Of a DNA stretch of 33,795 nucleotides, positions 25,284 through 30,512 are shown piece after piece. The DNA is taken from contig VGIQ01000018.1 of the NCBI GenBank assembly GCA_016867835.1, positions 1 through 33,795 on the forward strand. The letters are read 5' to 3'. Under the pieces are notes generated by a model, which was not told the DNA's origin, searched no databases, and saw only the letters and a list, made by a program, of their open reading frames with translations. Origin of the DNA: Calditrichota bacterium. GTDB taxonomy: Bacteria > Electryoneota > AABM5-125-24 > Hatepunaeales > Hatepunaeaceae. A program made the translations under genes and the position numbers. The number at the start of each line of letters is the position of its first letter. Within the stretch, counting starts at the first letter, position 1.

Positions 25284-25356
<73 letters not shown>

Positions 25357-25514
25357 CTTCCTATAGACTTTAGTAGTGAACAGTGTCTCCCAGTCGCTCC
25401 GCTGTTTGATGTCCTGCCACTGAGACTTAGAGTAATGTAACACCGGAATCGGAAATCGAGAGCATTGTCAGTAAGAAGGACTGGATGCCGCGATTCCTGA
25501 CTCATTAAAACAAC

Positions 25515-26720
25515 ATGATCGGACCTGTCGAAGTCCTTCCTCCGGAACACTTCAAACGCCAGTGGTATTGCAATGCACTTCCCGTTGAGGTTCGGAGTGT
25601 GGCAATCACTTCTCGACAAGCGTCTGAAGATTCACGATCCCTCCTTCCAATATCCCGACTTCCCCGTATCACTTGCTCCGAAGCGCCTTGGCTTGCAGCC
25701 ATGCGCCTGGCTATAGATAGCATCCATGTTAGCGGCCCGGTAGTGATCGGGAGCACTGGCAGCATCGGCTGGGAATACCCGGTCTGGTATGCAAACAGGA
25801 AACGCCAGCCGATCGTTGTCGTTCTAATGCCAGGCAGCGTGATTGGTATGCATCAAGAGGCGAAGCAAACGATTAGCCAACTGGCGCTCGACTCAACCAG
25901 GACGACCTTTCTTAAACCCCTTGTCGAAGGACCTGCCAGGCGCACCGAGCGATTTCATCTGCGGGATGAGTTTGCGTTTCTCCTTGCTGATCGGGTGTTT
26001 CCCATATCGATTCGTCCGGGTGGATATTGGGATCGTGTCCTGGAGGGTGACGCAAGGGTAGATCAAAGGTTTGCAGTGAATCCCCCTCAACCGGTGCGGA
26101 GCCGGGTGCAAGGATGGTCGTATAGGACGCATCAGGAAGACCTGCCCTTTGAGGCATTCCTCTTTCACTGGACTCGCGGCGCAAGCGGGCCGTTTCCGGG
26201 AGAGACTCGCGGCAATTATTATTCCGTGCTAACCGAAGGTCGTAACGGAAATCCGCGAGATGGCGCTGCGACGTTGTGCCACATACTTGAAACCGGCATC
26301 CTTCGTGGTGAAGGACGGATGTTTCGGGGGGCTGTTCCAGCATTGTCGTTCACATCACTGGCACCGGACAAGTGGCTGAAATCGCGTGGCTATCGAAACG
26401 CTTTGGGACGATGGAATTTCGAGCCGTATGCGATTGGCATACCTAAAGTTACACTTGCAGCGCTTGGCGCAAGGCCGGTCATTTATGGCGAAGAGAGCCT
26501 GTTCGCTACATTATCGCCCGAAGACCGCCCTTACTTTCAGTTGCGCAGTAGTCCTCAGTCTCTCGACTGGTCAGGAGAGAATGAATGGCGACTGCCGGGG
26601 GATCTCGATCTGGCGAGCCTCGCCGACAAGTTGCTAATCATCGTCCCCGAGACCTTCGATTTGAATCGCCTTCCCGACCACCTGAGATCGAACCGGATAC
26701 TATTCCTTGGTGAATCCTGA
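25515..26720 (+). CDS. Uncharacterised two-part protein; C-terminal half AbiGi-like
   Basis: A 401-residue protein I cannot assign with certainty. The N-terminal part (~20-165) looks like a Rossmann nucleotide-sensor (SLOG-like) domain: VAITSRQ at 29-35, PVVIGSTGSIGWEYPVWYA, then QPIVVVLMPGS. The C-terminal part (~210-400) has an ordered set of motifs: FLFHWTRGASGPFPGE, ATLCHILETGILRGEGR, LSFTSLAP, RWNFEPYAIGI, GARPVIYG and ENEWRLPGDLDL. That pattern recalls AbiGi/ART-like abortive-infection proteins, in which a Tyr-Gly and a Glu-Trp-Arg motif recur. The homology is from memory and unverified. The gene starts 158 nt after tRNA-Lys, has no clear Shine-Dalgarno, and ends 62 nt before an ABC exporter. 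Defence function is speculative. Confidence 0.6.
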   Translation: MIGPVEVLPPEHFKRQWYCNALPVEVRSVAITSRQASEDSRSLLPISRLPRITCSEAPWLAAMRLAIDSIHVSGPVVIGSTGSIGWEYPVWYANRKRQPIVVVLMPGSVIGMHQEAKQTISQLALDSTRTTFLKPLVEGPARRTERFHLRDEFAFLLADRVFPISIRPGGYWDRVLEGDARVDQRFAVNPPQPVRSRVQGWSYRTHQEDLPFEAFLFHWTRGASGPFPGETRGNYYSVLTEGRNGNPRDGAATLCHILETGILRGEGRMFRGAVPALSFTSLAPDKWLKSRGYRNALGRWNFEPYAIGIPKVTLAALGARPVIYGEESLFATLSPEDRPYFQLRSSPQSLDWSGENEWRLPGDLDLASLADKLLIIVPETFDLNRLPDHLRSNRILFLGES

Positions 26721-26782: not shown

Positions 26783-28528
26783 TTGTTCGTCAGCGCGCGT
26801 CCCTATCATAGCAAGTTGCTTCTCGGTCTGGCTGCGACGGTTCTGGCATCAGTCGCCGAGACCGCCGGACCGATGCTACTCAAAGCAGGCATCGACGGCA
26901 TTCAAGCCTCGGCCGGATTTCGGGCTTTAACACTTACGGCTGGCGCGATCCTGCTCGTCGCTCTAATCGGCAGCCTTTTTCGTTTTTGGATGCGCGACCT
27001 GATCATCGTCGTTTCGCGCTGGATCGAAAGTGACTTGCGTGAGGGGTTTTTTCGACATTTGTTAAGACTGCCTCCTGCCTTTTTCGACCGCAATCAGACC
27101 GGCGACCTGATGGCTCGGGCAACCGACGATATCGAACGCATCCGGATGGCTGCGGGACCGGCTTTGCTCTACGCAGTCAACACCCAATTGACGATACTCT
27201 TTTCGCTGGCGATGATGTTCTACTTGAACGTAAAACTGGCGGCGCTGGTGCTGCTACTTGCTCCACTGGTTGGAGGTGCAATGCTGGCAATTGCGAGAGC
27301 CCTTCACACTGCCAATCTGCGTCAGCAAGAGACCTATGGCCGTATGACCTCGCGTATTCAGGAGAATATTGCCGGGCTAAGAGTGATCAAAAGTTACACC
27401 CGTGAGGCGTTCGAGTCAGTCCGTTTCGAAGGAGTGGCACGGGAGTATTTCTCGCGCAGTCTTGTTGTGGCGCGATGGCAGGCTCTGATGTTTCCGATGA
27501 TAGGGACGCTCATTGGACTCGGCATTGCCGGCATCGTCTGGATCGGAGGGCGGCAAACTGCGGCAGGCGCGTTTAGCCTTGGCGGCTTCGTTGCGTTCAT
27601 GAGTTATCTCTCGGTGATGACATGGCCAATGATCGCACTCGGCTGGGTAATCCATCTCTATCAACGTGGCTCAGCTTCACACCAAAGACTCGAAACCGTG
27701 ATGGCTGAAGCGCCACAATTTGAGCCTACGGTATCCGAGGTAAGGGAAAAGCCGTCTGATCCGAGCGGCGGAATTTGCTTTCAAGGGATTGGTTTCCGGT
27801 ATCGGGATGATCTGCCACCGGTTCTTGATGGGTTCGATCTAACTATAGAGCCCGGGACGCTCCTGGTGCTCGTGGGAGCGACCGGATCCGGTAAGAGCAG
27901 CATAGCACGGCTGTTGGCGAGACAGTATCGTCCCGAGTCGGGTAAAATTTTCCTTACTGGGCGGCCCATCGATACTCTCCCCATCGATGACTATCGCCGC
28001 AACCTGGCAGTTGTCGAGCAGGTGCCGTTTCTCTTCTCCACCACTATTCGGGACAATGTCCGGTATGGAAATAGGAATGCCACTGATAAGGAAGTTGTCA
28101 ACGCGCTTGATATAGCAGGGTTGTCCGGTGAGGTTCAGGCCTTCCCAAACAGCATCAATACCGTTATCGGAGAGCGCGGTATCACCCTCTCCGGTGGTCA
28201 ACAGCAGCGATTGGCGTTGGCCCGTGCCTTGGTCCGCAAAGCGCCTATCCTCTTGCTGGACGATGCCCTGTCAGCGGTCGATACAGAGACCGAAAAAAAC
28301 ATCCTCGACCGACTCGCGCTTGAAGAGGCGCATCGGACGATCATCTTCATCACCCATCGGCTGGCTGTCGCGGAGCGGGCTTCAAAGGTCGCCGTCCTTG
28401 CTGAAGGGAAGATTGTCGAGGCTGGTAGTCACTCTGAATTAATGGCTCTGGACGGTCATTTTGCTGCGCTCTACCGGTTACAAAGGCTGAGGTCGGAACT
28501 GGAAACCGGGCAACTCAATGCCGCGTAA
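26783..28528 (+). CDS. ABC exporter subunit 1 (half-transporter, non-canonical Walker B)
   Basis: A 581-residue ABC exporter half: six predicted transmembrane helices over ~1-310, then an ATPase domain with Walker A GATGSGKSS, signature LSGGQQQR and H-loop ITHRLA. Walker B reads ILLLDDALSAVD: the catalytic Glu is replaced by Asp. The start is TTG at 26783 with CGGAG five nt upstream; the frame is open further back to the previous stop, so a few more N-terminal residues are possible. Its end overlaps the next subunit by 11 nt. The two form a heterodimer of the TM287/288, BmrCD or TmrAB kind, exporting drugs, lipids or peptides. The substrate is unknown. Confidence 0.92.
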   Translation: MFVSARPYHSKLLLGLAATVLASVAETAGPMLLKAGIDGIQASAGFRALTLTAGAILLVALIGSLFRFWMRDLIIVVSRWIESDLREGFFRHLLRLPPAFFDRNQTGDLMARATDDIERIRMAAGPALLYAVNTQLTILFSLAMMFYLNVKLAALVLLLAPLVGGAMLAIARALHTANLRQQETYGRMTSRIQENIAGLRVIKSYTREAFESVRFEGVAREYFSRSLVVARWQALMFPMIGTLIGLGIAGIVWIGGRQTAAGAFSLGGFVAFMSYLSVMTWPMIALGWVIHLYQRGSASHQRLETVMAEAPQFEPTVSEVREKPSDPSGGICFQGIGFRYRDDLPPVLDGFDLTIEPGTLLVLVGATGSGKSSIARLLARQYRPESGKIFLTGRPIDTLPIDDYRRNLAVVEQVPFLFSTTIRDNVRYGNRNATDKEVVNALDIAGLSGEVQAFPNSINTVIGERGITLSGGQQQRLALARALVRKAPILLLDDALSAVDTETEKNILDRLALEEAHRTIIFITHRLAVAERASKVAVLAEGKIVEAGSHSELMALDGHFAALYRLQRLRSELETGQLNAA

Positions 28529-30512
28529 GGCTTTGAAAGAAGACGATCGTCTCCCGGTGGTTCCTGTCGCAAACAGAGACGAGAGGGTTGACGATCCCTC
28601 CGGAGACGGGGGGGTTAAGCATGTCGATAGTTCGGCAGGTCGTGAGGCAATGCCTGACGATACCGTTCTGGGGCAGGCCTTCGATCTGCAACTGACGCGA
28701 CGACTTCTGACCTATCTTCGCCCCTACCGGGCGCAACTTGCGATTGCGATCGGACTTCTCCTGTCGGCCACAGTTGTTGAACTGGCCGGCCCGCTGGTTC
28801 TCAAGAAAGGTATCGACGATCACGTCTCCACCGGCCGTATCGACGGGTTAGGGAGCATTGTCCTGGTCTATCTCGGCGTCTTGATGCTCGGCCTGATACT
28901 GCGTTTCTATCAGATCTATTCGGCCTCCTGGATAGGTGAGCGAGTCGTATTCGATTTGCGCCGCCTGCTATTCGATCGGGTGCAGCATCTGCCGCTTTCT
29001 CGCATTGATTCCCGGCCGGTTGGGTGGTGGATGACTCGGGTAGCCAACGATGTCCAGACTTTGAACGAGATGTTTTCGACGGTGGTAGTATCAGTCTTCG
29101 GTGATTTCCTTGCATTAGCCGGCATTGTCGGTATTCTCTTCTATCTTGACTGGCGTTTGGCATTGGTAACGCTCAGCGTCCTGCCGCCCCTGGTCTTGGT
29201 CGTGGCGCTCTTTCGCAAGCGGGTCCGGCGCAATTTCAGGATCATAAGGGAAGCCCTTGCCAAACTGAACGGATTCATCCAGGAGCGTATATCCGGGGTC
29301 CGAACGGTGCAACTCTTCGGTAGAGAAACCGCCTCGGAGAGAGAGTTCCAGCCGCTAAATCATGCCTTTCGATCGGCGTACATCAAGACTATCCGCTACT
29401 ATGCTCTCTTTTTCCCGGCGGTAACATTCCTGTTGTCACTCTCAACGGCACTAATTCTCTTCACGGGCGGCAGGATGATCTATTCCGGAGTCGTCACTTG
29501 GGGGCTGTTGGTGGCGTTCCTGCAATACGCCGAGCGATTCTTTAGACCGATTCGCGATCTGGCCGAACGCTACAACACAATGCAGGCAGCAATGGCGGCG
29601 GCTGAGCGGGTCTTCTGGGTCCTCGACTCTTCCGTCGAGGAGAAGAGAGGTTCGCGGTTGGATAGACCAGGTACAGGGTATCTAGAGAGCGCCACATTGA
29701 CGGACATCACCGAAATCTCAGTAGGGCAGGTTGAAGTCCCGCATGCGGAGAAGACCTTGCGATCCTCCGGAGAAATTCACTTCGACCATGTCGGATTCGA
29801 ATATCTGCGTGGTGAGCCGGTTCTGCAGGATGTATCTTTCATGGTAGAGCCGGGCAGCACGGTGGCGGTTGTCGGGGCGACCGGCGCCGGCAAGACCACG
29901 TTGATCAGCCTCCTATTGCGCTTCTGGGATGTAACCTCGGGGCGCATACTGCTGGACGGGGTCGATATCCGCGAGATGCCGCTTTCCGACCTGCGAAGAC
30001 GATTCGGGGTGGTTCTGCAGGATTCGTTTCTCTTCAGCGGAAGCGTTGCCAGCAATGTCCTTCCCGAGGCCTTGGACGGCAATGCAAACGGTGCGCAGGT
30101 CCGTTTGAAGAAGGCACTTAGGGATTCCGGTGCCGGGGATTTCGTCGATCGACTGCCGGAAGGAACGGATGCCGAAGTAGGCGAACGCGGATCTTCCATA
30201 TCGGTCGGCGAGAGACAAATGCTGGCTATTGCACGGGCTATGGCAGCGGATCCGGAAATCCTTCTGCTTGACGAAGCCACGGCATCGGTGGACACTGGAT
30301 CCGAACGCCGTATTCAAGAAGCCTTCGACCGGTTGATGGAAGGTCGGACGTCCATCGTCGTTGCCCACCGGCTCTCGACAATACGAAAAGCTGACCGCAT
30401 CCTGGTGATGCATCAGGGACGATTGAGCGAAGCCGGGACGCACGAAGAGTTATTGTCGCGAAACGGCATCTATACACGCCTACACCGGCTTCAGTTCGCG
30501 GACGAAAATTGA
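28518..30512 (+). CDS. ABC exporter subunit 2 (half-transporter, degenerate signature)
   Basis: A 664-residue partner of the preceding subunit. A ~55-residue hydrophilic N-terminal extension precedes the six transmembrane helices. A linker longer than usual (~residues 370-415) separates them from the ATPase domain. Walker A is GATGAGKTT, Walker B is ILLLDEATASVD with canonical Glu, and the H-loop is VAHRLS. The signature is degraded to ISVGERQ where LSGGQ is normal. Together with the Asp of subunit 1 this puts both lesions in the same ATP site, leaving one consensus and one degenerate site. ATG start overlapping the preceding gene. Confidence 0.92.
   Translation: MPRKALKEDDRLPVVPVANRDERVDDPSGDGGVKHVDSSAGREAMPDDTVLGQAFDLQLTRRLLTYLRPYRAQLAIAIGLLLSATVVELAGPLVLKKGIDDHVSTGRIDGLGSIVLVYLGVLMLGLILRFYQIYSASWIGERVVFDLRRLLFDRVQHLPLSRIDSRPVGWWMTRVANDVQTLNEMFSTVVVSVFGDFLALAGIVGILFYLDWRLALVTLSVLPPLVLVVALFRKRVRRNFRIIREALAKLNGFIQERISGVRTVQLFGRETASEREFQPLNHAFRSAYIKTIRYYALFFPAVTFLLSLSTALILFTGGRMIYSGVVTWGLLVAFLQYAERFFRPIRDLAERYNTMQAAMAAAERVFWVLDSSVEEKRGSRLDRPGTGYLESATLTDITEISVGQVEVPHAEKTLRSSGEIHFDHVGFEYLRGEPVLQDVSFMVEPGSTVAVVGATGAGKTTLISLLLRFWDVTSGRILLDGVDIREMPLSDLRRRFGVVLQDSFLFSGSVASNVLPEALDGNANGAQVRLKKALRDSGAGDFVDRLPEGTDAEVGERGSSISVGERQMLAIARAMAADPEILLLDEATASVDTGSERRIQEAFDRLMEGRTSIVVAHRLSTIRKADRILVMHQGRLSEAGTHEELLSRNGIYTRLHRLQFADEN

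Follow-up and report, generated by a model that had tools for sequence, protein, structure and literature searches.

The window analyzed here, a stretch of 33,795 nucleotides of contig VGIQ01000018.1 from a Calditrichota bacterium, carries a gene whose product appears to join a DprA-like domain to an ADP-ribosyltransferase (ART)-like domain. Is this an accessory anti-phage gene inserted at a tRNA, or a chromosomal gene with another role, and what might its two halves do together? The features concerned are the following.

25284..25357, + strand, tRNA-Lys(CTT), identified by ARAGORN (context, outside the protein)
25515..26720, + strand, fusion gene, open reading frame of 401 amino acids with an ATG start
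25524..26093, + strand, predicted N-terminal DprA/SLOG Rossmann domain, residues ~4 to 193 (fold and profile matches)
26136..26717, + strand, predicted C-terminal AbiGi/ART (DarT-like) domain, residues 208 to 401 (model and profile)
26783-28528 and 28518-30512, + strand, two ABC exporter genes (Pfam ABC_membrane/ABC_tran; context)

The fusion gene and its relatives

The tRNA-Lys(CTT) gene lies 157 bp upstream of the fusion gene start, and a response regulator gene is also found on that side; the ABC exporter genes lie downstream. An earlier note on this DNA had placed the gene between a tRNA and an ABC exporter, and both neighbors are present. The open reading frame that it described is also real, since all five of its ordered motifs (HWTR, SFTSLAP, WNFEPYAIGI, PVIYG, and ENEWR) occur in the 401-amino-acid translation and homologues exist in several phyla.

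As a single sequence, the window protein had no match in Pfam, NCBIfam, PADLOC, PHROGs, or PDB sequences, so alignments were needed to reveal its relations. A genome search recovered homologues in 25 other genomes, with one match each, and the 24 that were aligned shared 20 to 41% identity with the window protein. The resulting 25-row alignment and profile of the fusion family (A1) has 20 invariant residues. Two of 25 members weakly matched the PADLOC model PDC-S31 (best E 5e-4), and a profile of alignment A4 gave only chance matches against PDB sequences. None of the libraries searched names the fusion. Our literature search found no DprA-ART fusion, although an earlier mention, for example in the main SLOG survey, is still possible.

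The N-terminal half resembles DprA

An AlphaFold2 model of the full-length protein built on A1 had a pLDDT of 89.2 and a pTM of 0.88. The top structural match of residues 4 to 193 was ShosA (Z 15.0, 169 residues aligned, rmsd 3.0), and DprA matched with Z 11-13.3 over 169-176 residues. Profile comparison agreed with the fold: hhalign of the N-terminal half against the phylum's own DprA gave E 2.6e-4 with 25 rows and 6.1e-7 with 63 rows, and a Desulfobacterota-type subset of N-terminal halves reached E 3e-8 against DprA, compared with a best E of 0.028 among 40 column-shuffled control alignments. The homologue L058 exceeded the PF02481 cut-off (E 1.9e-10, 40.7 bits versus 29.6); at E <= 0.01, this model matched five of 30 family members, the window protein not among them. 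An SLOG-like N-terminus, as the earlier note had suggested, is thus well supported by the predicted fold and by the profile match to DprA, and more exactly the N-terminal half is probably a DprA-type extended Rossmann domain.

The motifs S47-R48, S80-x-G82, R150-D151, and R167-x-x-G170 are found in this half, and the first three occupy GTR-like S-R, S-x-G, and R-[ND] positions shared with DprA/Smf. In Helicobacter pylori DprA, R52, K137, and R143 are required for single-stranded DNA (ssDNA) binding (PMC4489622). L058 matched that protein by phmmer (E 2.4e-4), with R/K/R aligned to R52/K137/R143. In the window protein, R48 and R150 fall by alignment at the R52 and R143 positions and T144 at that of K137, so that two of the three ssDNA-binding residues appear to be in place. 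R48 is conserved in 52 and R150 in 63 of 64 homologues. The fusion differs from DprA/Smf in that an ART-like domain replaces the DprA C-terminal domain, in that most members fall below Pfam thresholds, and in that these genomes also have a canonical DprA gene of their own (31 of 31 searched, including that of the window).

The C-terminal half is related to AbiGi and has a predicted ART fold

Eight AbiGi-type proteins, including two that NCBI annotates as AbiGi, aligned with the C-terminal half by hhalign across 155 columns (probability 99.5, E 6.3e-23), and H-x-T, F-T, PYGI, and E-x-E-W-R are shared within that span. The A1 profile independently found two AbiGi loci (G005:C24 and G022:C15). 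The Pfam AbiGi model (PF10899) matched five of 59 C-domains, all short of the gathering score (best E 0.0027) and none of them that of the window protein, and two C-domains weakly matched DUF2971.

When the C-domain was modeled alone from 59 sequences (pLDDT 91.9), its seven best structural matches were all DarT (Z 7.6-8.3, 133-144 residues), followed by Tpt1/KptA (Z 5-5.6, 78-88 residues), Rhs toxins, cholera-type toxins, and PARP. Residues 208 to 400 of the full-length model likewise matched DarT (Z 7.5-7.8). Z values near 8 are at the edge of the comparison tool's stated gray zone; we nevertheless assign an ART fold because the leading matches are almost wholly ARTs. Foldseek on its own found no match for the C-terminal half at E <= 0.001. 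A Foldseek search of BFVD also gave nothing at this threshold. hhalign against DarT alignments was not significant, and the DarT profile PF14487 found nothing in the window genome. Profiles thus fail to tie this half to DarT (DarTG1/DarTG2 toxins), and the link consists of fold and motif position: DarT is the nearest structure, its first strand likewise carries an H-x-T and one of its late strands a glutamate, and it differs in having no profile-detectable sequence similarity. That the C-terminal motifs recall AbiGi/ART-like proteins, as had been proposed, is well supported by the AbiGi alignment and the DarT-like model.

The motifs of this half, H218-W-T220, T280, E303-P304, Y324, and E355-x-E357-W-R359, are retained across 64 homologues (H218, T/S280, and P304 in 64; Y324, E355, E357, and R359 in 63; T220 in 62). 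H218, T220, T/S280, and E357 lie on or next to the predicted core strands 215-219, 276-280, and 357-361. In DarT1, H17 and T19 contact NAD+, F18 stacks on the nicotinamide, and E152 is the ART glutamate and is required (PMC11543638). Judged from alignments and strand positions, the H-x-T and the ART glutamate of the fusion appear to have counterparts in DarT1.

An ART fold may also serve other chemistry, such as Tpt1-like tRNA/RNA 2'-phosphotransfer, RNA ADP-ribosylation, or NAD+ hydrolysis, or the domain may lack catalysis. Tpt1/KptA is the next structural group, and four separate lineages have an RNA gene no more than about 0.5 kb upstream of the fusion gene. Against this, the DarT matches are longer and higher, and the near-invariance of H-x-T and E-x-E argues against loss of catalysis. 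We consider this reading unlikely.

DarTG membership was also considered for the fusion and was rejected, with no macrodomain or NADAR partner in the genome and no sequence match to DarT. The window genome had no Macro, NADAR, or ARH match. These results, together with the separate canonical DprA, indicate that the fusion is neither a DarTG pair nor the DprA of its genome.

In contrast to the fusion, the AbiGi proteins examined, which NCBI names "abortive infection system antitoxin AbiGi family protein," stand alone and are encoded on plasmids or next to defense genes. One such AbiGi-type protein (L127:1318-1980) is encoded beside a DUF1156-type methylase gene, and two others (L128:2962-3609 and L133:2926-3609) beside a Shedu immune nuclease gene. 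Lactococcal AbiGi alone was not toxic in Escherichia coli (PMC3985639). No AbiGii-like partner was recognized among the neighbors of the window gene.

Distribution and inheritance

The A1 profile found 24 full-length copies and one remnant in 39 genomes of the phylum, so that 23 genomes besides that of the window carry an intact homologue. Families f2 and f3 (13 genomes) have no full copies, nor does G030, and outside these two families 24 of 26 genomes carry one intact copy. The remnant (L033:5721-6164, genome G004) encodes 147 amino acids and lacks the equivalent of residues ~75 to 315 of the window protein. Its decay indicates that the fusion gene can be lost. L070 and L074 each seemed to hold a second copy, but these were clustering artifacts that the family profile did not match.

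Scanning named genomes yielded 57 loci in several little-studied phyla, among them Calditrichota/Electryoneota, LCP-89, Zixibacteria, Omnitrophota, Desulfobacterota, and Planctomycetaceae metagenome-assembled genomes. A 63-row tree had 13 changes of phylum label; the minimum is 10, and shuffling gave a mean of 29.5. The tree thus largely follows the phyla, and inheritance of the fusion gene has been mostly vertical, with some transfers possible. Searches found no full-length fusion match on plasmids or phages and no fusion match on viral contigs. An unannotated "Salmonella phage" record of 1,457 bases gave a 31% match (E 4e-3), which we disregarded, treating the record as an unverified stray contig.

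In the phylum, a divergent DarT-like protein that stands alone is common in genomes without the fusion, and most examples have an H-S-T-H motif (L112-L118 and L120 in family f3 genomes, L119 in G009). It was present in nine of 14 genomes without the fusion and in none of 25 with it, a pattern confounded by phylogeny. It is possible that this protein functionally replaces the fusion.

Genomic context argues against a recent insertion

The earlier note read the tRNA and a possible repeat as marks of an accessory insertion. That the gene had recently been inserted at the tRNA as an accessory anti-phage gene fits the adjoining tRNA-Lys, yet we regard this as very improbable. The order of tRNA-Lys(CTT) and fusion gene is common to four genera (the window, L009, L011, and L015), and the gene-ABC-ABC order recurs in the window's family (L015, L033-L036, L038, and L039). 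Most families of the phylum have the gene near-universally and in one copy, and its tree largely follows phyla. The only repeats at the locus, one 20-nt direct repeat and one 18-nt inverted pair, are at chance level; neither copies the tRNA end or resembles an attachment site. The gene's GC content is close to that of its neighbors (0.551 versus 0.57 for the window; mean difference from surroundings +0.013 over 52 loci), and its GC3 (0.542) is slightly below that of every other gene in a comparison of ten.

In four separate lineages, a count made post hoc, the fusion gene has an RNA gene on its upstream side, often within 0.5 kb, and the kind of RNA differs: tRNA-Lys as above, tmRNA (L016-L019 and L024), tRNA-Leu (L053, L057, and L059), and tRNA-Ser (L029). 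The tmRNA is seen in five genomes of family f6, at about 50 bp to 3.6 kb.

In six Desulfobacterota loci (L054, L058, L070, L074, L081, and L088), a BPL_N-like gene lies upstream, and it overlaps the fusion gene by 8 bp in L058 and 47 bp in L054; it may be an operon partner there. In Desulfomonile-type genomes (L056 and L068), the fusion gene has ComEC/RodZ on one side and a prepilin peptidase gene on the other, the ComEC-RodZ side recurs in L090, and in L054 and L058 the gene is beside exeA/gspB/gspE-like genes. These neighbors might indicate a housekeeping recombination or DNA-uptake enzyme, in which the DprA half would cooperate with machinery of the RecA/ComEC type and ssDNA ends would be marked or protected by the ART half, acting in normal physiology and not as an effector. 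Single copy number, mostly vertical inheritance, and core positions fit such an enzyme. However, each of the 31 genomes tested already has a canonical DprA gene, one copy of the fusion gene has decayed, and competence-like neighbors are confined to Desulfobacterota and related lineages, the neighbors in other lineages being ABC exporters, RlmN/MoxR, and others. We hold this reading to be doubtful, though not far-fetched.

In the loci read, the fusion itself was not in mobile or defense contexts. This bears on a self-contained toxin-antitoxin, in which the DprA half would hold a toxic ART half in check until phage infection or DNA damage sets it free, as a single-chain version of shosTA or DprA-PRTase. 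DprA homologues act as antitoxins in shosTA, syrTA, and rqlHI (PMC9122126), ShosA is the top structural match, and standalone relatives of the C-domain adjoin Shedu or methylase genes. The chromosomal setting, with no full-length copy on plasmids, phages, or viral contigs, makes this improbable in our view.

Taken as anatomy, the earlier description of a sensor plus an effector remains a good reading, since the two-domain architecture is supported by fold and profile; the accessory insertion and defense island attached to it are unsupported. That note held that homologues in core positions or a housekeeping fold would count against it: the homologues largely occupy core positions, and structure prediction did not return a housekeeping fold.

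A proposed mechanism

We favor, at a probability of roughly 0.5, a chromosomal, mostly vertically inherited ADP-ribosyltransferase that is targeted by its DprA domain. The DprA-type domain would bind exposed ssDNA, or another nucleic-acid or nucleotide cue, and would thereby bring or switch on the AbiGi/DarT-type domain. The latter would use NAD+ through H218, T280, and E357 to ADP-ribosylate nucleic acid, with DNA bases as a first guess, or a bound protein, and this modification may slow replication or another core process. From the domains and conserved residues, we infer NAD+ use, DNA as ligand or target, and regulation of one half by the other; physiologically, the fusion would then be a chromosomal response to DNA stress or foreign DNA and not a mobile toxin-antitoxin.

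There is precedent in a DprA-like protein that, paired with an effector gene, defends against phage (PMC9122126). The DprA-PRTase and shosTA modules resemble the fusion in coupling a DprA-like protein to an effector enzyme, but they are separate genes with a PRTase effector on phages and other mobile elements, whereas the fusion is a single chromosomal polypeptide with an ART-like effector. Several results count against the favored mechanism: no partner or hydrolase gene points to a substrate, profiles fail to tie the C-terminal half to DarT, Foldseek gives that half no match at E <= 0.001, T144 occupies the K137 position, and lactococcal AbiGi alone was not toxic. A further idea, which we think quite unlikely, is a core non-toxic pathway across several phyla, in which a DprA-guided enzyme places ADP-ribose on ssDNA during normal recombination or DNA-damage handling and the AbiGi "antitoxins" are its mobile relatives.

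The DprA-targeted ADP-ribosyltransferase proposed here predicts that AbiGi-family proteins are themselves ADP-ribosyltransferases. For AbiGi, which the libraries consulted name only as antitoxins, the predicted chemistry is an NAD+-dependent transfer that relies on the H-x-T and E-x-E-W-R motifs. Neither the AbiGi family nor the DprA-like proteins that act outside competence have a clear mechanism, and this mostly vertical fusion unites the two in one protein, in which it can be asked if an ADP-ribosyltransferase is guided to ssDNA by a DprA domain.
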